From: a virus
Length of the DNA: 64,000 nt
IMG/VR virus record: IMGVR_UViG_3300044825_001821
Location: 1-64,000 of that record
Direction: 5' to 3' (one strand)
The notes under the pieces are model-generated. The model searched no databases, was not told where the DNA came from, and saw only the letters and a list, made by a program, of their open reading frames with translations. Both the position numbers and the translations under genes were made by a program. Below are positions 20,558-61,424 of this stretch, piece after piece (position 1 is the stretch's first letter; each line of letters begins with the position of its first letter).

Positions 20558-21580
20558 ATGAAGAAGTTTTTACTATCAATATTACTTTTCACAGGTGTCG
20601 CATCAGCAGCAGATTTAACCGGTGCTGGTGCGACATTTCCATATCCAATCTATGCAAAATGGGCTGAAGCATATAAAGCAGCAACAGGCATAGGACTCAA
20701 TTATCAATCAATTGGTTCTGGTGGTGGTATCCGTCAAATCAAAGCAAAGACAGTTGACTTTGGTGCATCTGACATGCCATTGAAGCCAGAAGAACTTGAA
20801 AAAGAAGGTCTAACACAATTTCCAGCAATTATTGGTGGTGTAGTACCAGTTGTAAATCTTGATGGTGTAACACCAGGTCAATTGAAGTTGACGAGTGATG
20901 TTGTTGCGGGTATTCATCTTGGTAAAATCACAAAGTGGAATGATAAGGCAATCACTGATTTGAATCCAGGTGTAAATCTACCAGCAATGAACATTACTGT
21001 AATTCATCGTGCAGATGGTTCTGGTACAACATTTGTTTGGACAAATTACTTGGGTAAAGCAAATGCTGAATTTGCCAAAATAGTTGGTGAAGGCACAGCA
21101 GTGAAATGGCCAGTTGGTATTGGCGGCAAAGGTAATGAAGGTGTCGCAGCAAATGTGCAAAGAGTAAAAGGTGCATTTGGTTATGTTGAATATGCATATG
21201 CAAAGAAAAATAAAATTGCATGGGCACAATTAAAGAATCGTGATGGTAACTTTGTACAACCAGATGATTCAACATTCAAAGCAGCCGCAGCAAATGCAGA
21301 TTGGGCAAACGCACCAGGTATGTACTTGTTACTCACATGGCAAACAGGTAAAGACGCATGGCCTGCAACAGGTGCAAGTTTTATTCTAATGCATAAGCAA
21401 CAAGCAGATGCACTTACTGGTCGTGCAATTCTAAAATTCTTTGATTGGAGTTACAAGAATGGCGCAAAGATGAGTGAAGATTTGGAGTATGTACACATGC
21501 CTCAATCAGTTATCAAGTTAGTTCAAGATAACTGGAAAAAGGACTACAAAGGTCCTGACAACACACCTATTTGGAAATAA
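20558..21580 (+). CDS. pstS: Periplasmic phosphate-binding protein PstS
   Basis: This 340-residue protein has a signal peptide with cleavage after GVASA (residue 17). The mature part shows the PstS phosphate-site motifs: GAGATFPYP, SIGSGGGIRQI, DFGASDMPL and HRADGSGTTF. It is complete, with no truncation, and should bind phosphate for the host PstABC transporter. It is followed after 9 bases by an outer-membrane phosphate-porin gene, so the pair covers both envelope steps of phosphate uptake. Confidence 0.95.
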   Translation: MKKFLLSILLFTGVASAADLTGAGATFPYPIYAKWAEAYKAATGIGLNYQSIGSGGGIRQIKAKTVDFGASDMPLKPEELEKEGLTQFPAIIGGVVPVVNLDGVTPGQLKLTSDVVAGIHLGKITKWNDKAITDLNPGVNLPAMNITVIHRADGSGTTFVWTNYLGKANAEFAKIVGEGTAVKWPVGIGGKGNEGVAANVQRVKGAFGYVEYAYAKKNKIAWAQLKNRDGNFVQPDDSTFKAAAANADWANAPGMYLLLTWQTGKDAWPATGASFILMHKQQADALTGRAILKFFDWSYKNGAKMSEDLEYVHMPQSVIKLVQDNWKKDYKGPDNTPIWK

Positions 21581-21589
21581 GGATAAATT

Positions 21590-22996
21590 ATGAAATTATT
21601 TAAAAAACTTGCTATCGTCATTGCACTTGCAACTGTAATGCCAGCATATGCTGATAGTCACAAAGAAACTTTAAGCATTTTAAAAGACAAAGGTATTCTT
21701 ACTCAACAAGAGTATGATACTAAAATTAAAGAGTATGAAGAAAAAGAAGAAAACAAAAAGTTCGTTGAACAAAGAATTGACAGAGATGTCAGTGAATCAA
21801 ACAAGTGGAGAATTGCAAGACAAGATGACGGCGGAGTCATGGGCAATGGTCTTGGAATCAAATCCAAAGATGGCAACACGACAGCCCAGTTTACAGGTAG
21901 AATACATATGGACTACCGAACTTATACACCAGACTACGCCACGGGTCAAAGCACAGATACGTATCAAGATGGTTTAGAGGTACGCCGTGCAAGATTTGGT
22001 GTTCGTGGTCAATTTGCAAAAGACTTCAAATATCTTCTATTAGCGAACTTTGGTAATGATACAGGTGCAGCATCATCTACTTCAACAATGGATGAAATGT
22101 GGGTTAACTATGCAGCCAATCCTGAAATGCAATTTCAGTTTGGTTTATTCAAAATGCCATTCAGTCTTGAGCAATTGACCAGTTCAAATAATCTTGATTT
22201 TATGGAGCGTAGTCTAATTGGTCAAACTGAAGGTGAGTTTATACCTGCAAAAGAAACAGGAGTGATGCTACATGGTGTACCTAAAACTGGTGTTACATAT
22301 GCCGTGGCTCTCAGTCGTGGCAGAGGAAATAAGAGTGCCACAGCAGACAGCACTGACGTAATCGGTCGTGCAACTGTAAACTTTGCCGAACTTGCGATGA
22401 TTAAAGATACAGTAATGCATCTTGGTGCTGCATACAGTGTAGGCGATATCAAAAGCGGCGTAGCACCAGCAAGTGGTCGTACAGAGAGTCGTCAACAAAG
22501 TGCATACTTTACAGGTCCTGCACTAAGTGGTGACACAAACCGCACACGCCAAGGTCTTGAAGCAGCGTTTGCATATAAGGCACTGAAACTACAAGGTGAA
22601 CAGTTTCAATTCACATATGATCCTGCGAAAGGTGCTGATCAAAAGATTGATGGTTATTACATTCAAGCAATGTACAATCTGACAGGTGAAAGCCACAGTT
22701 ATAAAGATGGTGTATTTGGTTGGATCAAGCCAAACAATCCCATTGATAAAGGTGGCAAAGGTGCATGGCAGGTAGGTGTTCGTGCAAGTGAGTTCAATGC
22801 CGATGACATAGCCGTAGTCACAGGCAAAACAAACAAAGCAACAGCACTCACATATGGCATTACGTGGTTTGCAAATGACAATCTACGTTTCATGCTAAAC
22901 TATGTTGACACAAAGTTTGATGCTCCAGTTGGTGCAGCCGGTAGTCGTGTAAACGGAGACAAGGCTGTGATGCTCAGAGGTCAATTGAGTTTCTAA
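21590..22996 (+). CDS. Phosphate-selective porin, OprO/OprP family
   Basis: This 468-residue protein has a signal peptide cleaved after PAYA (residue 21). Next comes a short helical SHOCT-like or coiled segment (ILKDKGILTQQEYDTKIKEYEEK), then a beta-barrel with FTGRIHMDYRTY, EVRRARFGVRGQFAKDFKYLL, LFKMPFSLEQLTSSNNLDFMERS and alternating strands to a terminal Phe (RGQLSF). This layout is that of OprO/P-type phosphate or polyphosphate porins of proteobacteria. A complete outer-membrane porin is unusual in a phage. It probably raises phosphate influx; it could also alter surface receptors. Confidence 0.85.
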   Translation: MKLFKKLAIVIALATVMPAYADSHKETLSILKDKGILTQQEYDTKIKEYEEKEENKKFVEQRIDRDVSESNKWRIARQDDGGVMGNGLGIKSKDGNTTAQFTGRIHMDYRTYTPDYATGQSTDTYQDGLEVRRARFGVRGQFAKDFKYLLLANFGNDTGAASSTSTMDEMWVNYAANPEMQFQFGLFKMPFSLEQLTSSNNLDFMERSLIGQTEGEFIPAKETGVMLHGVPKTGVTYAVALSRGRGNKSATADSTDVIGRATVNFAELAMIKDTVMHLGAAYSVGDIKSGVAPASGRTESRQQSAYFTGPALSGDTNRTRQGLEAAFAYKALKLQGEQFQFTYDPAKGADQKIDGYYIQAMYNLTGESHSYKDGVFGWIKPNNPIDKGGKGAWQVGVRASEFNADDIAVVTGKTNKATALTYGITWFANDNLRFMLNYVDTKFDAPVGAAGSRVNGDKAVMLRGQLSF

Positions 22997-27860: not shown

Positions 27861-27945
27861 GCGGGTATGGTGAAATAGGTAGACACAGCAGACTTAAAAT
27901 CTGCCGACTTCGGTCATGCTGGTTCGATTCCGGCTATCCGCACCA
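27861..27945 (+). tRNA. tRNA-Leu(TAA)
   Basis: An 85-base type II cloverleaf. GCGGGTA pairs with TATCCGC, the loop CTTAAAA gives anticodon TAA, the variable arm is long and CCA is encoded. Confidence 0.93.
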
Positions 27946-27949
27946 AACA

Positions 27950-28024
27950 CTGGCGTTAGTTCAATGGATAGAACAGTAGCCTTCTAAGCTATAAATGTAG
28001 GTTCGATTCCTACACGCCGGACCA
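27950..28024 (+). tRNA. tRNA-Arg(TCT)
   Basis: Acceptor CTGGCGT pairs with ACGCCGG (one T-G pair), the D-stem is GTTC/GAAC, anticodon TCT, T-loop GGTTCGATTCC, CCA encoded. Confidence 0.92.
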
Positions 28025-34400: not shown

Positions 34401-34558
34401 TACCAAAATCAACTTATTACAGTATTGTCTGTAAAGCAACTGGCCTGGTGACGGAAAAAGGTAGCAAAAAAGCAATGTTGAAAGTCATGAAAGCAAAACC
34501 AGGTGTTTACTTTTTAGCACTGACCGGCCGCCCAATTGGTAGCATTTTTGCCGAATAA
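34397..34558 (+). CDS. Small basic protein
   Basis: This is a 53-codon frame (MIPKSTYYSIVCKATGLVTEKG...). GGAG upstream and ATGA overlap. Function unknown. Confidence 0.5.
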   Translation: MIPKSTYYSIVCKATGLVTEKGSKKAMLKVMKAKPGVYFLALTGRPIGSIFAE

Positions 34559-34563
34559 AACAC

Positions 34564-34592
34564 TTGACAAGTTTTTGGCTTGTCCCTATAAT
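34564..34592 (+). promoter_or_regulatory. Early promoter, TTGACAAGT family
   Basis: TTGACA-17-TATAAT followed by GG; consensus boxes. Confidence 0.87.
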
Positions 34593-34622
34593 GGTTCTGT
34601 GCTGAATGATGTGGAGGAAAAG

Positions 34623-34787
34623 ATGTATACCTGTGATGGCAGAAAATTCAAGCGTCTGAAAACCGCTGTGGCCTATGCTGCAAAAGCTTTTGCAAAGACC
34701 GGCGTAGTGTTGGGCATTGAGCCTGTGGTGGTGTTGAACAAGAACCCTGGTTATGTTGCTTATCTTGCGAAAGGTATGAAATTATGA
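34623..34787 (+). CDS. Small basic protein
   Basis: This is a 54-residue protein (MYTCDGRKFKRLKTAVAYAAKAF...) with GGAGG before ATG 34623. Function unknown. Confidence 0.55.
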   Translation: MYTCDGRKFKRLKTAVAYAAKAFAKTGVVLGIEPVVVLNKNPGYVAYLAKGMKL

Positions 34788-34918
34788 TAGTCCGCCGTGA
34801 AACTCTGAATGAAATTGCTACTCTGAAGTACCTTGGCTACCCTGTGTGGCGTATATCGCAATTGCTGCGTATTGCTTCCGCTGACATTGACGCCGCAATT
34901 AAAACCTGGAAACTGTAA
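34784..34918 (+). CDS. Small HTH-like protein
   Basis: This 44-codon frame (EIATLKYLGYPVWRISQLLRIASADIDAAI) resembles a helix-turn-helix. ATGA overlap upstream. Confidence 0.5.
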   Translation: MIVRRETLNEIATLKYLGYPVWRISQLLRIASADIDAAIKTWKL

Positions 34919-34926
34919 GGAAAAAT

Positions 34927-35124
34927 ATGTCTGATGCGAAATTTACTAAACATGAGTCCGCCTTTGAAGTAACGAAGGCTGTACTGTGGGGCACAGTGCC
35001 GATCACAGTGATCCCTGCACGTAAGCGTAAAGTAAAGTCTGTTGCACGTGTGAAGTCCAGCAAGGGCTTTGTCAAGGGTACTAGTGGTATCGCAACTGGC
35101 TATCCCCGAAAGACCTTTGTATGA
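34927..35124 (+). CDS. Small basic protein
   Basis: This is a 65-residue Lys-rich protein (VIPARKRKVKSVARVKSSKG) with AAGG before the ATG. It could bind nucleic acid. Confidence 0.5.
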   Translation: MSDAKFTKHESAFEVTKAVLWGTVPITVIPARKRKVKSVARVKSSKGFVKGTSGIATGYPRKTFV

Positions 35125-35318
35125 CCAAAGCACGATTCGACCAGGCAGAGGTGCAGTCTGCCATTGCTGCCTTTGTGTCCAATACTGCGCCCCGCACTGC
35201 ACCTGCACTAGGAAAAAATAGTGAGGTGACAGTGTACGGTGTAAATACAAATAAGTACAAGCCCATTCTACCTAAACTGGAGGACGACGATGGCAAAGTT
35301 CAAGGACTTATTGATTAG
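35121..35318 (+). CDS. Small hypothetical protein
   Basis: This is a 65-residue protein overlapping the previous stop by ATGA. No family recognised. Confidence 0.5.
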   Translation: MTKARFDQAEVQSAIAAFVSNTAPRTAPALGKNSEVTVYGVNTNKYKPILPKLEDDDGKVQGLID

Positions 35319-35436
35319 CATCCTAGAACTAGATGAACGGGGAGTTAGTGTTGCTGATATTGCAACGAGACTGCAAGTGGGGCGCTCTGTTGTCGAATAT
35401 GCACTAGCCATGTACGGCACTGTGGCAAACAACTAA
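35290..35436 (+). CDS. Small HTH protein
   Basis: This 48-codon frame (LDERGVSVADIATRLQVGRSVVEYAL) has the profile of a helix-turn-helix. It overlaps the previous gene by 29 bases. Confidence 0.5.
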   Translation: MAKFKDLLISILELDERGVSVADIATRLQVGRSVVEYALAMYGTVANN

Positions 35437-35590
35437 GGCAGTGTTATTTAAAAGCTATTAGGGGGGTTACAAGGGTTTCTATAGCAAAAAGAGTCTCATC
35501 AAAGGAACATGCTATTCCGAAGCAACCTTATCGCAAACGAAATCCGCTGCCCTATACTGAGTCATGCTAAAATTTTTTTTGGAGTGTGAA

Positions 35591-35806
35591 ATGAGCAAAA
35601 AAGCCAAGCCTAAGTATGCACTGCAATTCACTGAGAAGCAATTGAGTCATCTGCACAATTCGCTGCGTGTCTATGAGCAACTTTCTCTCATGATAAATGA
35701 TGGTGATGATGAAGATCCGGAGACAAGTATTCGACGGCTGAACAAGTGGGATGACCTGGGTAAGATGATTAAGTCTGTTGAAAAAGTCCTCGATTCAATT
35801 GATTAA
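35591..35806 (+). CDS. Small helical protein
   Basis: This is a 71-residue protein (ALQFTEKQLSHLHNSLRVYEQLS...). GGAGTGTGAA before ATG 35591 is a recurrent ribosome-site context here. Function unknown. Confidence 0.55.
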   Translation: MSKKAKPKYALQFTEKQLSHLHNSLRVYEQLSLMINDGDDEDPETSIRRLNKWDDLGKMIKSVEKVLDSID

Positions 35807-41827: not shown

Positions 41828-41903
41828 GCACCCATCGTCTAGAGGCCTAGGACCCTGCCCTTTCACGGCAGTAACACCGGTTCAAATCCGGTTGGGTGTA
41901 CCA
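41828..41903 (+). tRNA. tRNA-Glu(TTC)
   Basis: GCACCCA/TGGGTGT acceptor, loop CTTTCAC, T-arm CCGGTTCAAATCCGG, CCA encoded. Confidence 0.93.
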
Positions 41904-41954
41904 AGTTCTTAATAGGAGACCTGTCATGGATAGTGACAAGAGTGGTAAGATGAA

Positions 41955-42030
41955 GGGAGTATAGTCAAACGGTTAAGACAGCGGACTTTTAATCCGTCAG
42001 GTCAGGGTTCGAATCCCTGTGCTCCCACCA
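41955..42030 (+). tRNA. tRNA-Lys(TTT)
   Basis: GGGAGTA/TGCTCCC acceptor, loop CTTTTAA, CCA encoded. Confidence 0.93.
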
Positions 42031-42064
42031 TATAAAAGTATTTTGATTCAGAGTATTTTTATAT

Positions 42065-42142
42065 GGCACTTTAGCATAGTTGGCCTAATGCGCTGCCCTG
42101 TCACGGCAGAGATCACGGGTTCGAATCCCGTAAGTGTCGCCA
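42065..42142 (+). tRNA. tRNA-Asp(GTC)
   Basis: GGCACTT/AAGTGTC acceptor, anticodon loop CTGTCAC, CCA encoded. Confidence 0.93.
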
Positions 42143-42149
42143 GAATTAT

Positions 42150-42224
42150 TGCCAAGTAGCACAGTGGTAGTGCAGTTGACTGTTAATCAATTGGTCGTTG
42201 GTTCGATCCCAACCTTGGCAGCCA
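42150..42224 (+). tRNA. tRNA-Asn(GTT)
   Basis: TGCCAAG/CTTGGCA acceptor, loop CTGTTAA, discriminator G, CCA encoded. Confidence 0.93.
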
Positions 42225-42593
42225 GTATCCCGCTTACCGTTAAGTGTCAAGTAACGGCGATCCTAATGTCGAAAATGATTAGGCGTATTGTGAGCGTCAA
42301 TCACACGGCAGAACAGAAAATCATATGATAATGCCGCAGAGTCCCGCTTACATGGGAGCCTTATGAAAATACTGTTCCGGTAGCAAGCCAGGCCACCGAT
42401 ATAATAAATTGGACGGACAGAGTAACTGCTCAGTCTAGGGCTTATGGGAGTAAGTAGCTAGACACCTTAATTGTGTTATCTGTAAGCCATGGGCTTGATC
42501 ATGCCTGAGTAACTATGTACACAGACGGTAAATCCGGCCGGCTATTCCGTTGAGCATAGCAAATAGTGCAGATAACACAATTAAGGTAACTGT
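42225..42593 (+). ncRNA. Structured non-coding stretch inside the tRNA array
   Basis: This is 369 bases without a credible gene but full of helices: CCGTTA/TAACGG, CCTAAT/ATTAGG, CGGCA/TGCCG, CGGT/ACCG and a perfect 19-bp long-range stem between 42464-42482 and 42569-42587. Perfect complementarity of that length with divergent flanks indicates a selected RNA structure. It is flanked by tRNA-Asn and tRNA-Gln and would be co-transcribed. The class is not recognised. Confidence 0.6.
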
Positions 42594-42667
42594 TGGGGAT
42601 TAGTGAAATGGTATCACACCGGATTTTGATTCCGAGGTCGTAAGTTCGATTCTTACATCCCCTGCCA
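42594..42667 (+). tRNA. tRNA-Gln(TTG)
   Basis: Acceptor TGGGGAT/ATCCCCT with an open first pair as usual for Gln, loop TTTTGAT, CCA encoded. Confidence 0.92.
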
Positions 42668-42674
42668 AATTATT

Positions 42675-42758
42675 GGGTGACGAGCAGCACTGGTGACTGC
42701 ACCTGACTGTAAATCAGACGCTTCGGCATACTTGGTTCGACTCCGAGGTCACCCACCA
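42675..42758 (+). tRNA. tRNA-Tyr(GTA)
   Basis: GGGTGAC/GTCACCC acceptor, loop CTGTAAA, long variable arm GACGCTTCGGC, CCA encoded. Confidence 0.93.
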
Positions 42759-42932
42759 GTAAACTTGAGTTGTGGCAAGTATAGTCCACAAACAGGAGTG
42801 TAACCTGATTCATACAAAGATAAGTATGAAACGTGAATGAGCCATCTTTTGACCGTGTTCTTTAGGCAGGAAACACATAAGAAAACGGCAGGCGTTAAAC
42901 GTGATTACAATCGCCTAGGTAATCAAAGTATT
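42759..42932 (+). ncRNA. Second structured spacer in the tRNA array
   Basis: No gene. Helices: GTGG/CCAC, TTCATAC (42809-42815)/GTATGAA (42824-42830), GTGTT/AACAC, and AGGCG (42890-42894)/CGCCT (42912-42916) whose loop GATTAC can pair with GTAATC downstream, an H-type pseudoknot. Class unknown. Confidence 0.45.
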
Positions 42933-43007
42933 CGGTCTTTAGTAAAATGGATATTACGGCGGGCTACGGACCCGCAGGTGGGAGTTCGATTCTCTCAGGA
43001 CCGGCCA
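42933..43007 (+). tRNA. tRNA-Arg(ACG)
   Basis: CGGTCTT/AGGACCG acceptor, loop CTACGGA, CCA encoded. A34 would need deamination by TadA. Confidence 0.9.
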
Positions 43008-43098
43008 TATTGAAACACATTGAATCCCAAGGGTACGAGGGGTGGCTGTAGGCCTATATTCCGGTCGATGGGTTCGATTCCCGCAGTGTGTTTCAATA
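43008..43098 (+). ncRNA. tRNA-like element with 15-bp terminal stem
   Basis: TATTGAAACACATTG pairs with CAGTGTGTTTCAATA at the other end (one G-U pair). Inside are a tRNA-like T-arm (GGGTTCGATTCCC) and a possible D-arm, but no normal anticodon arm and no CCA. It is either a decayed tRNA or a tRNA mimic. Confidence 0.5.
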
Positions 43099-43099
43099 T

Positions 43100-43175
43100 G
43101 GGGGATTGGTGCTAATTGGGAACACATGTGCTTTGCAAGCATGAGTAAGCAGTTCGAATCTGCTATCCTCCACCA
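43100..43175 (+). tRNA. tRNA-Ala(TGC)
   Basis: GGGGGAT/ATCCTCC acceptor, loop TTTGCAA, CCA encoded. Confidence 0.92.
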
Positions 43176-43185
43176 AAGTTTTATT

Positions 43186-43261
43186 GCCGGTTTAGCTCAT
43201 CTGGTAGAGCAGGCGCCTTGTAAGCGTCAGGTGGTGGGTTCGAGTCCTGCAACCGGCACCA
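43186..43261 (+). tRNA. tRNA-Thr(TGT)
   Basis: GCCGGTT/AACCGGC acceptor, loop CTTGTAA, CCA encoded. Confidence 0.94.
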
Positions 43262-43269
43262 AGTTTTAT

Positions 43270-43347
43270 CTGAGTGTAATGTCAGCCCGGTAGACGGCCT
43301 GGTTTGGAACTAGGAGGCCGTAGGTTCAAATCCTACCACTCAGACCA
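43270..43347 (+). tRNA. tRNA-Pro(TGG)
   Basis: CTGAGTG/CACTCAG acceptor, loop TTTGGAA, CCA encoded. Confidence 0.92.
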
Positions 43348-43349
43348 AT

Positions 43350-43425
43350 TGCGGGTTAGGGAAGAGGTCATCCCGTCAGGTTCATATTCTGAAGATCGTT
43401 GGTTCGAATCCAGCACCCGCTACCA
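43350..43425 (+). tRNA. tRNA-Met-type (CAT)
   Basis: Acceptor TGCGGGT/ACCCGCT with an unpaired first position, loop TTCATAT, CCA encoded. The three G-C pairs of an initiator anticodon stem are absent, so it is elongator Met or Ile(k2CAU). Confidence 0.88.
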
Positions 43426-43439
43426 ATTATAGGTGACTT

Positions 43440-43910
43440 ATGTTTAAAAAAGAAATTGACTTAAATGAAGTGGCTGCGTTTCTTGATAAATGTGGTCCCG
43501 ATACGAAAGTTTATATTGGTGCGGACAGTGAACGTTTTCAAATCAATGGCGACTGGTTTGCTGATTACATTCTAGCAGTTGTAATTCACATTGATGGTCG
43601 TCACGGCTGTAAGATATTCGGTGCCGTACAACGTGAACGTGATTTTGAACAAAAGAAAAATCGTCCACGTTTTCGTTTGATGAATGAGGTATATAAAGTT
43701 TCAGAATTGTATTTGAAATTGTATGAAGTTATACCACATGACATACAAATTCATCTGGATATCAATCCAAGTGAAATGCATGGCAGTTCATGTGTAGTAA
43801 ACGAAGCGATTGGTTATATCAAAGGTACATGTAATGTTGTACCACTGATCAAACCAAAAGCATTTGCAGCATCATATGCGGCTGATCGTTTCAAAAGTTT
43901 AGCAGCATAA
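43440..43910 (+). CDS. RNase H-like nuclease, YkuK/DUF458-type
   Basis: This 156-residue protein has KVYIGADSERFQ (first catalytic Asp), AVVIHIDGRHGCKIFGAVQRERDFE and IHLDINPSE (second Asp), followed by IGYIKG. These match the YkuK-type RNase H-like fold. It is the only clear protein gene inside the tRNA array, suggesting a role in RNA processing or turnover; that is inference. Confidence 0.72.
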   Translation: MFKKEIDLNEVAAFLDKCGPDTKVYIGADSERFQINGDWFADYILAVVIHIDGRHGCKIFGAVQRERDFEQKKNRPRFRLMNEVYKVSELYLKLYEVIPHDIQIHLDINPSEMHGSSCVVNEAIGYIKGTCNVVPLIKPKAFAASYAADRFKSLAA

Positions 43911-43919
43911 AAAAGTAAT

Positions 43920-43994
43920 GCGGGTATAGCACAGTGGTAGTGCGACACGTTGCCAACGTGTAGGTCATCAGTTCGAATCTGATTATCCGCTCCA
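43920..43994 (+). tRNA. tRNA-Gly(GCC)
   Basis: GCGGGTA/TATCCGC acceptor, loop TTGCCAA, CCA encoded. Confidence 0.94.
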
Positions 43995-43999
43995 GGTAT

Positions 44000-44073
44000 T
44001 TCGGTGTGGCGTAATGGCAGCGCAGGAGTCTCCAAAACTCTTAGTGGGGGTTCGATTCCCTCCACCGAAGCCA
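44000..44073 (+). tRNA. tRNA-Trp(CCA)
   Basis: TTCGGTG/CACCGAA acceptor, loop CTCCAAA, discriminator G, CCA encoded. Confidence 0.93.
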
Positions 44074-44076
44074 AAT

Positions 44077-44171
44077 GGTAGACAGCACTGGTGTGCGGCG
44101 GAGACTTATAAACTCTGGAGAGTGGCTAGATGGGCTGCAACGGCTAGGTTCGAATCCTAGGTCTACTACCA
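44077..44171 (+). tRNA. Atypical tRNA, provisional anticodon TAT
   Basis: GGTAGAC/GTCTACT acceptor, perfect CTAGG/CCTAG T-stem and encoded CCA. The putative anticodon stem GGAGA/ACTCT contains an A-A mismatch and gives loop CTTATAA (TAT, Ile). The variable region is about 27 bases, too long for Ile. Identity is uncertain. Confidence 0.55.
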
Positions 44172-44183
44172 GTGTTTTTTGGT

Positions 44184-44257
44184 GTGGCCATAGTGTAACG
44201 GTAGCACTAGACATTGTGACTGTCTCAGTTCGGATTCAAATTCCGATGGTCACCCCA
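44184..44257 (+). tRNA. tRNA-His(GTG)
   Basis: GTGGCCA/TGGTCAC acceptor, loop TTGTGAC, C73 as in His tRNAs, CCA encoded. Confidence 0.9.
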
Positions 44258-44266
44258 AAAAATATT

Positions 44267-44342
44267 GGTGCTTTAGCTGATGTGGTCATAGCAGTGGCCT
44301 GAAGAGCCTCGGAAGTTAGTTCGATTCTAACAGGCACCACCA
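44267..44342 (+). tRNA. tRNA-Phe(GAA)
   Basis: GGTGCTT/AGGCACC acceptor, loop CTGAAGA, CCA encoded; one mismatch in the anticodon stem. Confidence 0.88.
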
Positions 44343-44343
44343 T

Positions 44344-44417
44344 TGTCCTGTAGTTAAATGGTATAACTGTCGATTGATAATCGACCATTACAAGTTCAAT
44401 TCTTGTCGGGACAACCA
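44344..44417 (+). tRNA. tRNA-Ile(GAT)
   Basis: TGTCCTG/CGGGACA acceptor, loop TTGATAA, CCA encoded. Confidence 0.92.
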
Positions 44418-44422
44418 GAATT

Positions 44423-44497
44423 GGTAGTGTAGCATAATGGTAGTGCGCCACCTTCATACGGTGTTAGGTGTAAGTTCGAATCTTACCACTACTACCA
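44423..44497 (+). tRNA. tRNA-Met-type (CAT), second copy
   Basis: GGTAGTG/CACTACT acceptor, loop TTCATAC, CCA encoded. Differs strongly from the CAT tRNA at 43350, so one may be Ile(k2CAU). Confidence 0.88.
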
Positions 44498-44498
44498 A

Positions 44499-44574
44499 GC
44501 GCCGGTGACGGAACGGTATACGTGTTGGTCTTAGAAACCAAATTCTGAGAGTTCGAATCTCTCCTGGCGCACCA
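44499..44574 (+). tRNA. tRNA-Leu(TAG)
   Basis: GCGCCGG/CTGGCGC acceptor, loop CTTAGAA, CCA encoded. The variable arm is short for Leu. Confidence 0.87.
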
Positions 44575-44580
44575 GTATTT

Positions 44581-44654
44581 GCCTTGTTAGTTTAATGGTA
44601 GAACTCTGTCTTTACACGGCAGTTACGGTGGTTCGATTCCATCACAAGGCACCA
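44581..44654 (+). tRNA. tRNA-Val(TAC)
   Basis: GCCTTGT/ACAAGGC acceptor, loop TTTACAC, CCA encoded. Confidence 0.93.
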
Positions 44655-44661
44655 GTATCAT

Positions 44662-44739
44662 GCAACGGTGGCAGAGTGGTCCAATGCAAGAGTCTGCAAA
44701 ACTCTAAAGCCGTCGGTTCAAATCCGACCCGTTGCTCCA
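44662..44739 (+). tRNA. tRNA-Cys(GCA)
   Basis: GCAACGG/CCGTTGC acceptor, loop CTGCAAA, CCA encoded. Confidence 0.92.
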
Positions 44740-44744
44740 AATAT

Positions 44745-44834
44745 GGAAGTGTGGCAGAGTCCGGTTTATTGCACCTGTCTTGAAAACAGACGTATCGAAA
44801 GGTACCGTGAGTTCGAATCTCACCGCTTCCGCCA
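44745..44834 (+). tRNA. tRNA-Ser(TGA)
   Basis: GGAAGTG/CGCTTCC acceptor, loop CTTGAAA, long variable arm, CCA encoded. Confidence 0.93.
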
Positions 44835-44847
44835 AATAGGAGAAAAA

Positions 44848-45009
44848 ATGTTGATACTTACAACAATGCTGACGATGATATTTTATTGGGTATTGTTTGG
44901 TTTATCTGTAACGGCATTTTTATTCGTGATGTATGGTATCGCAATAGTATCTGGAGTGTTGGCCGAGTTGGTCGAAGGCACTTTCCTGCTAAGAAAGCAT
45001 ACCCCATAA
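44848..45009 (+). CDS. Small membrane protein overlapping a tRNA gene
   Basis: This is a 53-codon frame with a strong AGGAG site. Residues 1-40 are hydrophobic (two membrane segments). Its last 19 codons are read from the 5' part of tRNA-Ser(GCT), giving the tail LVEGTFLLRKHTP. The good start and composition argue that it is real. Confidence 0.6.
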   Translation: MLILTTMLTMIFYWVLFGLSVTAFLFVMYGIAIVSGVLAELVEGTFLLRKHTP

Positions 45010-45044
45010 GGGTATCATTGGTTCGAATCCAATACACTCCGCCA
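44953..45044 (+). tRNA. tRNA-Ser(GCT)
   Basis: GGAGTGT/ACACTCC acceptor, loop CTGCTAA, long variable arm ACCCCATAAGGGT, CCA encoded. It overlaps the end of the small membrane-protein gene. Confidence 0.93.
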
Positions 45045-45045
45045 C

Positions 45046-45074
45046 TTGACAACGTTTTTTCATTGATATATAAT
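45046..45074 (+). promoter_or_regulatory. Consensus sigma70-type promoter (TTGACA-17-TATAAT)
   Basis: Both hexamers match consensus. The -35 begins two bases after the tRNA-Ser CCA. Confidence 0.87.
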
Positions 45075-45098
45075 GTTTACTGTCGCATGGAGAAAGAA

Positions 45099-45260
45099 AT
45101 GAAAGGTAAAACTTTGAAAAAACTGTCCAAACCACGGAATTTTGTGGCAAAAGACTTATTCACACCGAAATATCGAATAAGAGTTGAGCACTCATCTGTA
45201 AATTTTTACAATCGTGCTTCCGAAAAACAAAATTTCCGAAAACAAAATGTCTATTTTTAG
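45099..45260 (+). CDS. Small basic protein
   Basis: This is a 53-residue protein (MKGKTLKKLSKPRNFVAKDLFTPKYR...) with GGAG before ATG 45099. It is a short family seen in T4-like aquatic phages. Function unknown. Confidence 0.6.
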   Translation: MKGKTLKKLSKPRNFVAKDLFTPKYRIRVEHSSVNFYNRASEKQNFRKQNVYF

Positions 45261-45684
45261 AAAAAAAGTTGAAGAACCCGTCGATCCACCCGTTTCAGGT
45301 AATGAAATGGATGATTTTGACGGTTTTTATTTTGTTCCTGATGATGATGACTTTGAAAATAACTATAAAATGATATTTTTCAACATGAAAGATGAATATT
45401 CCAACTCAAAACCAGTTGAGAGTTCACACATGGGGCTAAAATATCACTTGTGTTTTTTCAAAACCGATGAAAATGGCGCTCCTGTGTTTGATGATGCGTT
45501 TGAAGCCATACTTGTTGACCCTTTAACGTATGTGAAGAGCATGACAGGCTCAGGAATTGGTGGTTGTGTCTTGAAAAAGACAGAAAAATCGGATGGATGG
45601 TGGACTGATTACTTGAATTTCATCACCGGTGGCGAATTTAAGCAAAAAGTAAGAGAGGCATTCGGTTCTATCGCAAACAATTGA
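45247..45684 (+). CDS. Hypothetical protein
   Basis: This is a 145-residue acidic protein with a DDDDFENNYKMIFFNMKDEY region. It starts inside the previous gene and there is no clear ribosome site. Function unknown. Confidence 0.5.
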   Translation: MSIFRKKVEEPVDPPVSGNEMDDFDGFYFVPDDDDFENNYKMIFFNMKDEYSNSKPVESSHMGLKYHLCFFKTDENGAPVFDDAFEAILVDPLTYVKSMTGSGIGGCVLKKTEKSDGWWTDYLNFITGGEFKQKVREAFGSIANN

Positions 45685-45686
45685 TC

Positions 45687-46004
45687 ATGAAAGTGAGGAT
45701 TGATAAATTTATGGAAAAAATATTCGACCCAAGTTACAAAGATTACAAAACAAGCCGTAAATGGCTGATTGGTTTGCTCGAAAGTGAGATTGTAGAAATT
45801 ACTTTCTTAAAAAAAGACGGAACTGAACGTATAATGAATTGTACGTTACAAGAAGATTACTTACCAGAAACAGTTGGCTCTGATAAAGATAAAAATAGTG
45901 ATGCACTTGCGGTTTTTGATGTAGACAAAGAAGATTGGCGCTCATTTCGTTGGGATTCAGTAAAACGAATTTCATTTTCTATTGGTGGAGAACATAATGC
46001 CTAA
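45687..46004 (+). CDS. WYL_2-like beta-barrel protein
   Basis: This 105-residue protein has IVEITFLKKDGTERIMNCTL followed by ALAVFDVDKEDWRSFRWDSVKRI, the phage WYL_2/SH3-like fold pattern. Such proteins are thought to bind ligands or nucleic acid. The ATG is preferred to TTG 45681. Confidence 0.65.
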   Translation: MKVRIDKFMEKIFDPSYKDYKTSRKWLIGLLESEIVEITFLKKDGTERIMNCTLQEDYLPETVGSDKDKNSDALAVFDVDKEDWRSFRWDSVKRISFSIGGEHNA

Positions 46005-46287
46005 GTATATCGTAGAACAAATTTCTGTACACCGCAGTGTATTTGTGGTCGAAGCGGATAACCAAGAAGATGCTAAAAAAGTTGCGGCAGTTGCCGATGA
46101 CAATTGGCAACAATGGCTTGGTCAACTTGATGTTGATGTGAATGAGTATTCTGAAGAAAGAATTGCTTATTTCAAACACAAAGATTATTTCTGGGATGGT
46201 GTTTCATACAAAGACAGTGATGGATACCTTGCATATCATCACCCATCAGGTGAAGATATAGAACGTAAGGAAATTGTCATTCGTTAA
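45997..46287 (+). CDS. Small hypothetical protein
   Basis: This is a 96-residue protein (MPKYIVEQISVHRSVFVVEADNQEDA...). GGAG selects ATG 45997. Function unknown. Confidence 0.55.
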   Translation: MPKYIVEQISVHRSVFVVEADNQEDAKKVAAVADDNWQQWLGQLDVDVNEYSEERIAYFKHKDYFWDGVSYKDSDGYLAYHHPSGEDIERKEIVIR

Positions 46288-46293
46288 TCAAAT

Positions 46294-46371
46294 GCGGACG
46301 TAGTGTTCAACGGTTAGCACGTGAGCCTTCCAAGCTTGAAGTGAGGAGTTCGAATCTCCCCGTCCGCTCCA
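46294..46371 (+). tRNA. tRNA-Gly(TCC)
   Basis: GCGGACG/CGTCCGC acceptor, loop CTTCCAA, CCA encoded. Last tRNA of the array. Confidence 0.92.
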
Positions 46372-46573: not shown

Positions 46574-46614
46574 TTTTTTTTAAATATAACTGTTGTTATT
46601 CTATAGGAGATGTT

Positions 46615-47058
46615 ATGAACTTGAAAGGATCAAGAACCGCCGAAAGCCTTAAAGAAGCTTTTGCAGGTGAATCAATGGCAAACCGCCGCTATCTGTATTT
46701 CGCAAATCAATGTGATATTGCAGGTGAAAACGATCTTGCTGCATTGTTCCGTTCCACAGCAGAAGGTGAAACAGGACACGCACATGGTCACATGGAGTAT
46801 TTGATCAACTTAGGCGCAGGAGACCCAGGAACAGATCAACCAGCAAGAACAGTTAAAGAAATGTTGGAATCTGCAATTCATGGTGAAACTCATGAGTACA
46901 CTGACATGTATCCTGGTATGGCTAGAATAGCACGTGATGAGGGTTTTGAAGAAATTGCTGATTGGTTTGAAACTCTAGCCAAAGCAGAACGTTCTCATGC
47001 TAACCGCTACAAAAAAGCCCTTGATACCTTTTACCCCGAAATTTTAGATAAAATTTAA
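46615..47058 (+). CDS. Rubrerythrin-like diiron protein
   Basis: This 147-residue protein is the diiron four-helix domain: [17 protein letters not shown], ...[32 protein letters not shown] and [14 protein letters not shown] supply the Glu/His ligands. The C-terminal rubredoxin domain is absent. It would reduce peroxide. TAGGAG upstream; the pqqA-like gene follows after 13 bases. Confidence 0.85.
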
Positions 47059-47071
47059 TAAGGAGAGTAGT

Positions 47072-47146
47072 ATGAAGTGGAGTACACCTACAGCACAAGA
47101 TATGCGTTTTGGTTTTGAAATCACAATGTATATTGCAAATCGTTAA
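47072..47146 (+). CDS. pqqA: PqqA-like precursor peptide of pyrroloquinoline quinone
   Basis: This 24-codon frame has AGGAG at 47061-47065. The peptide opens MKWSTP and ends FGFEITMYIANR: the Glu16-x-x-x-Tyr20 pair of PqqA, whose two side chains become PQQ, is present at the usual positions, with the usual length (22-24), the Trp-x-x-P start and the R-x-G-x-E-x-T-x-Y core. PqqA is cross-linked by PqqE with PqqD. No other pqq gene is visible, so it would feed the host pathway. A strong terminator follows at once. Confidence 0.82.
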   Translation: MKWSTPTAQDMRFGFEITMYIANR

Positions 47147-47150
47147 AACG

Positions 47151-47177
47151 AAAGCGGCTACCAAGCCGCTTTTCTTT
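47151..47177. terminator. Bidirectional terminator
   Basis: AAAGCGGCT pairs with AGCCGCTTT around an ACCA loop, with T-rich on one side and A-rich on the other. It separates pqqA from the convergent minus-strand gene. Confidence 0.9.
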
Positions 47178-47346
47178 TATCACGCACTGCCTTTACTCTA
47201 AACGTAGAATCATTGCTCATATTTTTTAAAGCGGCGTTTACTTGAACTGCTAACTTACAATCTTTGGTGACAAGAATTAAATTATTGCCTTTGTTGGTGT
47301 AAATGTAGTAAACTTCTTCACCGTCAACAAATTCAACGTGCATCAT
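47158..47346 (-). CDS. Small hypothetical protein
   Basis: This 62-residue protein, starting MMHVEFVDGEEVYYIYTNKG, is on the minus strand. The AGGA site favours this start over the longer frame to 47367. It overlaps the end of the neighbouring minus-strand gene. Function unknown. Confidence 0.55.
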   Translation of the reverse strand: MMHVEFVDGEEVYYIYTNKGNNLILVTKDCKLAVQVNAALKNMSNDSTFRVKAVRDKRKAAW

Positions 47347-48124
47347 TTTTATATCCTGGCACCTCACAATCTATCCATATTAAATTGTTATAGTGTTCGT
47401 AAGGCCACTGACCTTTTGGTAAAAGACAACGACCTAATTCAGGATAAACATCAATTCTTACTTGAACAATTGCCCAAACTAACCAAATGAAATAAATTAA
47501 GAAAATAGAAGAAAGTCCATACTTCCATGCGTTGCAACGAATGTGAGCAATTCTTCTTTGTCTTTTGATTGCAGCAATTCTATCCGCTTCTCTTTTTTTG
47601 ACCCATGCTACCGCTTGTTGCTTTTTCATTTTCTCCATCATTTTCTCTACACGTGTGTAAAGATCACCTAATTCTGGAGGACAATTATAAACCATGAGTT
47701 CACGTAACTCAGCCTGCATGGCAGTTAGTCTGCTTTGCATTAGAACACGTTGCAATGCTCTTTTACCTAGACTTGTTTCGCCTGTGTATACTTCATTGTC
47801 ATGTTTTTCTTCATCTTCAAAGATGGCAGAACATTTCGCATAGTTTTCAAAGTAAACACCTAACTCTTCACCTATTTGTGTGTAGATATCGTTAGGCTGT
47901 TTCTTGCTTAACTCAATTATGCGATTTTTTTCTTCAATGTACTGATTGCGTTCGGCAACCGTAGGCGGCTTGTCTTTATGACGAGAATTGAATTGCGACT
48001 CTAAATCTGATAGAACACCTTTTACATCACCAGCAACACCGGCAATTTCTTTGTATAACTCACAACCTTTTTTTACCGCTTGCACTGCACCATTTGCCAA
48101 AGCAAAAAGTGTAAACGGATCCAT
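47333..48124 (-). CDS. Membrane-anchored helical protein
   Basis: This 263-residue protein has an N-terminal helical region with GVAGDVKGVLSDLESQF, a long charged helical domain and one membrane helix (about 203-225), followed by a short Cys-containing tail. It is a type seen in T4-like marine phages. Together with its neighbour it is the only clear minus-strand coding in the window. Confidence 0.6.
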   Translation of the reverse strand: MDPFTLFALANGAVQAVKKGCELYKEIAGVAGDVKGVLSDLESQFNSRHKDKPPTVAERNQYIEEKNRIIELSKKQPNDIYTQIGEELGVYFENYAKCSAIFEDEEKHDNEVYTGETSLGKRALQRVLMQSRLTAMQAELRELMVYNCPPELGDLYTRVEKMMEKMKKQQAVAWVKKREADRIAAIKRQRRIAHIRCNAWKYGLSSIFLIYFIWLVWAIVQVRIDVYPELGRCLLPKGQWPYEHYNNLIWIDCEVPGYKNDAR

Positions 48125-60958: not shown

Positions 60959-61129
60959 ATGCAAATTAGTGAAACAGAATATGATCAAAAACTTGAACAG
61001 TATTTGAAAGAGCAAGGACCAAATCCCGGTACCACATTTTTTGGTGCTTGGGGTTGGTATGCATCAAAGAAGAATCAGTTTGAGAAACAAATGCAGCAGG
61101 AAGGAATTGTTGTAATCCCTTCAAAGTGA
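60959..61129 (+). CDS. Small hypothetical protein overlapping the tmRNA acceptor piece
   Basis: This 56-codon frame (MQISETEYDQKLEQYLKEQGPNPGTT...) has GGAG upstream. Its last codons lie within the predicted 5' part of the tmRNA acceptor piece. Confidence 0.5.
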   Translation: MQISETEYDQKLEQYLKEQGPNPGTTFFGAWGWYASKKNQFEKQMQQEGIVVIPSK

Positions 61130-61424
61130 AGGCATTCTGGACGGCGGTTCGATTCCGCCCATCTCCACCAAAAGCATCTTGATGGCTATAAGGTTGTAGA
61201 TTTGATCACCTACAATACGCTGTGTGATGGGTGCTTTTGATGGGGATGATCTGGTTTCGACAGGGTGAGATAGTGGAGAAGGCAACACGAAAGGCGACGG
61301 ACGTAATCCGAGCAAAATAAGTAATCGCAAATGACGACTACTACGCTCTAGCAGCCTAAAAATTGTTAGATGGGGTTTAAGTGGGTTGTACCTTATTACC
61401 AAAACAGCCCACATCAAATTCAGA
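61105..61424 (+). ncRNA. ssrA: Circularly permuted tmRNA
   Basis: The acceptor piece comes first (about 61105-61170): T-arm GGCGG/CCGCC with TTCGATT loop at 61143-61159, CATCTCC at 61160-61166, then ACCA. After a 71-base intervening hairpin comes the coding piece from 61242: GGGGATG pairs with CATCTCC (7 bp) and TCTGGTTTCGACAGG is the tmRNA D-analogue. CAGGGT (61261-61266) pairs with ATTCTG (61134-61139) and GAAGG (61278-61282) with CCTTC (61118-61122), rebuilding helix P2 across the pieces. The tag frame from resume codon GCA 61327 to TAA 61359 encodes ANDDYYALAA. A GTGGGTTGT/ACAGCCCAC helix follows. It rescues stalled ribosomes. Confidence 0.9.

Follow-up and report, generated by a model that had tools for sequence, protein, structure and literature searches.

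Here we report that a T4-like phage carries a genuine gene for PqqA, the precursor peptide of the cofactor PQQ, and that solitary pqqA genes occur commonly, for the most part without annotation, among phages whose bacterial hosts use PQQ. PQQ is a bacterial cofactor built from the PqqA peptide, and each PQQ molecule consumes one PqqA. The window (the 64,000-nt stretch of DNA that was analysed) belongs to a 172,439-base phage record in which pqqA occurs once, at 47072-47146. We consider it probable, at roughly 0.8, that this gene is functional and supplies the host with extra consumable PqqA substrate for PQQ, expressed late and together with a rubrerythrin.

The pqqA gene and its surroundings

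The locus is organised as follows, with positions given in the window:
46579..46586, plus strand: TTTAAATA, octamer resembling a T4 late promoter, ahead of the rubrerythrin gene (weak motif, suggestive only)
46615..47058, plus strand: rubrerythrin-family ferritin-like protein, 147 aa (PF02915, 90.6 bits, cut-off 22.8)
47060-47067, plus strand: Shine-Dalgarno AAGGAGAG of pqqA, read from the sequence
47072..47146, plus strand: pqqA, 24 aa, MKWSTPTAQDMRFGFEITMYIANR (family models PF08042 and TIGR02107; purifying selection in relatives)
47150..47179, plus strand: intrinsic terminator GAAAGCGGCT-ACCA-AGCCGCTTTT with a T-rich tail, directly 3' of pqqA (perfect hairpin)
47333..48124, minus strand: 263-aa protein, function not assigned, convergent with pqqA

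The identity of the gene, which starts with ATG at 47072 and stops at 47144-47146, is well supported. The peptide matches PF08042 with 35.2 bits (cut-off 21.1, E 1.2e-8, model positions 1-19/19) and the equivalog TIGR02107 with 36.9 bits (cut-off 20, E 2.2e-9, positions 1-21/21), well above both curated cut-offs, and the ribosome site, 24-codon length and Glu-x-x-x-Tyr on which an earlier note had based its identification as PqqA are all present. Glu16 and Tyr20, with three residues between them, are intact and coincide in numbering with the residues that PqqE cross-links in Methylorubrum (PMC10906245). The peptide shares with its family the length, a Trp-x-x-Pro start and the two reactive residues, the latter within a Gly-Phe-Glu-[IV]-Thr-Met-Tyr core; it differs in its setting, as cellular genomes of the closest PqqA type have pqqA preceding pqqB, whereas the phage copy is solitary and lies behind rubrerythrin. 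An AGGA/GGAG-type site is found in 123 of 128 related pqqA genes examined. PHROGs holds no family for pqqA or the neighbouring rubrerythrin gene, and Rfam matches for a riboswitch or sRNA at the locus were all below threshold, tRNA excepted. These results confirm 47072-47146 as a real PqqA gene of the phage.

The genome around it is that of a phage: its gp23-like capsid protein shares 64% identity with the cyanophage P-TIM40 counterpart, and a T4-type RNase H (exonuclease), RNR, virion proteins, 25 tRNAs and a tmRNA are encoded alongside. Within it pqqA is a host-type metabolic gene, that is, an auxiliary gene in a genuine phage genome. The tRNA genes (41828-46371 and 27861-28024, plus strand) cover nearly all amino acids, and 23 of the 25 form a single stretch that ends right before the rubrerythrin-pqqA unit. 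Elsewhere in the window, a gene for a PstS-like phosphate-binding protein (20558-21580, plus strand; as much as 75% identity to PstS of Burkholderiales) is followed downstream by one (21590-22996) whose 468-aa product begins with a signal-peptide-like segment.

The rubrerythrin gene and pqqA form a bicistron with 13 nt between them. Against the full-length rubrerythrin equivalog NF045767, a 194-position model, the 147-aa protein scored 114.8 bits (cut-off 200) over positions 3-143 only. Elements similar to TTTAAATA precede rbr in relatives, and because the octamer itself also stands 29 nt before the gp23-like capsid gene of the same genome, it suggests late transcription of rbr-pqqA. Terminator-like sites lie behind 120 of 296 phage pqqA genes among the matches listed, as against 6% of random positions, and relatives of the 263-aa protein occur downstream of pqqA, and convergent with it, in at least 14 other phage loci.

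Selection on the peptide was assessed in a first set, 127 phage copies of identical spacing among the matches listed (117 distinct DNA sequences, 54 distinct peptides), in which every copy with an analysed start keeps 10 residues between the Trp and the core. Entropy by codon position was 0.35/0.24/0.94, with variation mostly at third positions, and at the ten codons that the search pattern did not constrain, pN was 0.16 against a pS of 0.45; by these measures of sequence variation phage pqqA is under purifying selection, beyond chance. A functionless host fragment, recently captured, could account for so short a gene and for its closeness to cellular PqqA, but such selection, together with the preserved ribosome sites, the many phage backgrounds and the gene's own terminator, makes that reading scarcely credible. 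The first search patterns required Glu and Tyr; two later scans left codons 16 and 20 free, and both residues were nevertheless present in every match listed (133 and 122 loci tallied). That both residues stay invariant where free to vary is consistent with a substrate for cross-linking and speaks against the peptide being a decoy or inhibitor, one that would occupy host PqqD/PqqE and lower PQQ. The occurrence of pqqA without modifying enzymes would suit such a decoy, but decoy lineages should sometimes lose the reactive residues, and we regard this explanation as very improbable.

Solitary pqqA genes across phages

A tblastn search with PqqA over 50,697 phage records found the gene in nine records whose phages were grown on Methylophilales/Methylophilaceae (P19250A, Venkman, MEP301, MEP401, MEP402 and four Melnitz records), a count that leaves out the Methylophilales phage taxa MEP431-434 and HIM624-A, and in one podovirus from Manatee Spring. 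The remark in the earlier note that such a gene is easily missed proved apt, as it is unannotated or under an unnamed ORF in all ten of these named phages, and in Melnitz and the Manatee Spring phage the ORF annotated over it is on the wrong strand. Annotated ORFs opposite the real pqqA strand are found at 76100-76195 of Melnitz MZ577097.1 and at 2067-2195 of MW202481.1. Matches in two records labelled Acinetobacter phage were not counted because the one examined is bacterial: CAKLQF020000010.1 ('Acinetobacter phage MD-2021a') has fur, ppk and pqqB-E around the match with no phage genes in view, and is probably a chromosomal contig inside the phage collection.

Scanning IMG/VR with degenerate DNA patterns, for which all locus counts are minima, brought the total with the phage records to at least 343 pqqA loci, at least 297 of them with distinct surroundings and nearly all of these on IMG/VR viral contigs. 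Two peptide types, ending in V(M/C)NK and IANR, dominate among the matches listed. The carriers belong to several unrelated phage types, including the siphovirus-like P19250A, Venkman and MEP301, the Zobellviridae MEP401/402, the T4-like Melnitz, a 356-kb record and the 172-kb T4-like phage of the window. Melnitz EXVC044M resembles the window phage in being T4-like and in encoding a PqqA of 71% identity, the gene being unnamed in its record, but infects OM43 Methylophilales, has an opposite-strand ORF annotated over pqqA and gave no rubrerythrin match. P19250A, Venkman, MEP301, MEP401 and MEP402 likewise have a solitary, unannotated pqqA, but these are small siphovirus-like or Zobellviridae phages with a Methylophilaceae-type peptide of 23 aa ending in V(M/L)NK.

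Phage pqqA travels alone. The complete window-phage record of 172,439 bases contains no PQQ_2 (methanol/PQQ-type) dehydrogenase domain and no PqqE or any radical SAM protein, so PQQ could be completed only by the host. The gene is accordingly outside a pqqABCDE operon, a location that is usual but not required, as solitary extra host pqqA copies have been reported (PMC9851590). PqqE was above cut-off in 0 of 50 pqqA-bearing records and a PQQ_2 dehydrogenase was present in 1 of 49, many of the records being fragments, so that absence is not proof for any one of them. The single dehydrogenase-bearing record, the 72-kb IMGVR_UViG_3300025120_009955, has its PQQ_2-type domain at record positions 34406-35671, in a 628-aa frame.

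The pairing with rubrerythrin recurs in the PqqA subtype of the window phage. Among the matches listed, 25 of 297 pqqA loci, 22 of them of the IANR type, have a same-strand rubrerythrin gene no more than 1.2 kb away, directly before pqqA in some phages and directly after it in others; in loci not fetched through rubrerythrin there were 12 matches in 182 kb near pqqA versus 3 in 510 kb further away. The T4-like Pelagibacter phage Mosig has a rubrerythrin 62% identical to that of the window phage but no pqqA match. This recurrence in both gene orders, and the density close to pqqA, would suit an oxidative-stress module in which rubrerythrin removes peroxide, from sources that would include PqqC or increased respiration, while the additional PQQ serves as a putative redox buffer or protectant instead of mainly feeding dehydrogenases. 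However, rubrerythrin is absent near pqqA in most phages, including all 102 NK-type (Methylophilaceae-type) loci tested, and many of the linked loci are related by descent; we consider such a module unlikely.

Host of the phage

The methylotroph host favoured in the earlier note is not supported. In the comparison that it had proposed, phage PqqA was identical to Methylophilaceae PqqA at only 13-15 of 24 positions, versus 21/24 for Comamonadaceae/Burkholderiales PqqA, and the peptide alone is weak host evidence because that of Melnitz is also unusual. Relatives of PstS and rubrerythrin up to 75% identical are present in other Burkholderiales genomes, with no close match to either among the genomes recognised, by their PqqA sequence, as Methylophilaceae. 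A further line comes from the tmRNA:
61066..61422, plus strand: two-piece (permuted) tmRNA of betaproteobacterial type, tag ANDDYYALAA (RF01850, 166.5 bits; ARAGORN)
This type was found in no Methylophilaceae genome tested. It occurs in 12 of 300 sampled Burkholderiales, with a best long-stretch similarity of only about 72-79%. A search around one Burkholderiales with a two-piece tmRNA covered a single genome of one genus, from which pqqA was absent. The four lines (PqqA, PstS, rubrerythrin and tmRNA) disfavour Methylophilaceae and point to another betaproteobacterium, of the Burkholderiales in a broad sense; one that is non-methylotrophic or facultatively methylotrophic is the better guess. 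Since the phage is without a PQQ dehydrogenase, the link to methanol dehydrogenase drawn in the earlier note is only an assumption here.

A probable consumable precursor for a host cofactor

Phage pqqA as such is not new, because a virus-encoded PqqA with a methanol dehydrogenase has been published for Lake Baikal virus VP_266, assigned to Methylophilaceae (PMC7678222); viral pqqA also appears in a 2026 reservoir study (PMC13188868). VP_266 and the nine methylophage records bear out the earlier note's mention of pqqA in methylotroph phages. Like the window phage, VP_266 is T4-like, but it differs in its dehydrogenase and its likely host. The gene goes unmentioned in the publications describing Venkman, MEP301, Melnitz and MEP401/402, and in the open-licence literature we found no report of the gene in isolated methylophages or of its frequency, and none of its presence outside Methylophilaceae-type phages, its lone state or its pairing with rubrerythrin. 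What is new here is the unannotated or unnamed pqqA of ten named phages, the at least 297 distinct loci, the invariance of Glu16 and Tyr20, the lone state and the rubrerythrin pairing.

If the phage peptide is a substrate, late transcription jointly with the rubrerythrin gene would give an extra dose of PqqA in the infected cell, where host PqqD (assumed present) would bind it, host PqqE (assumed present) would cross-link Glu16 to Tyr20, and a host protease, PqqB and PqqC would complete PQQ. The added PQQ would sustain quinoprotein alcohol and sugar dehydrogenases, and with them electron flow during phage replication. In acetic acid bacteria, overexpressing some or all of the pqq genes alters PQQ levels, with pqqAB giving 29% more PQQ and full pqqABCDE eightfold in Acetobacter (PMC7936290), and Methylophilaceae have 3-12 pqqA copies to, typically, one pqqBCDE set (PMC4109929). 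Given this dosage effect, the multiple host copies and the one-for-one use of PqqA, the phage peptide plausibly lifts PQQ, although, going by the Acetobacter figures, pqqA alone may not be limiting. The earlier proposal of a boosted cofactor supply is well supported as regards the provision of substrate, while from the sequences we infer the time of expression, processing by host PqqD/PqqE, the rise in PQQ and the benefit to the phage. For the broader proposition we see an even chance: that several unrelated lineages of phages of PQQ-using Proteobacteria have convergently taken up PqqA, the RiPP precursor, and nothing else of the pathway, that they express it late (some with rubrerythrin) and that they rely on radical-SAM maturation by the host, PQQ supply being a common, overlooked control point of infection.

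Phage auxiliary genes usually encode enzymes. Phage pqqA, in contrast, encodes the consumable raw material of a peptide-derived cofactor, which these phages probably feed into the host's own pathway. The isolates Venkman, Melnitz, MEP301 and P19250A would permit direct testing of whether phages raise host PQQ. The frequency of pqqA and its missing annotation mark it as an overlooked basic feature of phages that infect methylotrophs and other freshwater betaproteobacteria.
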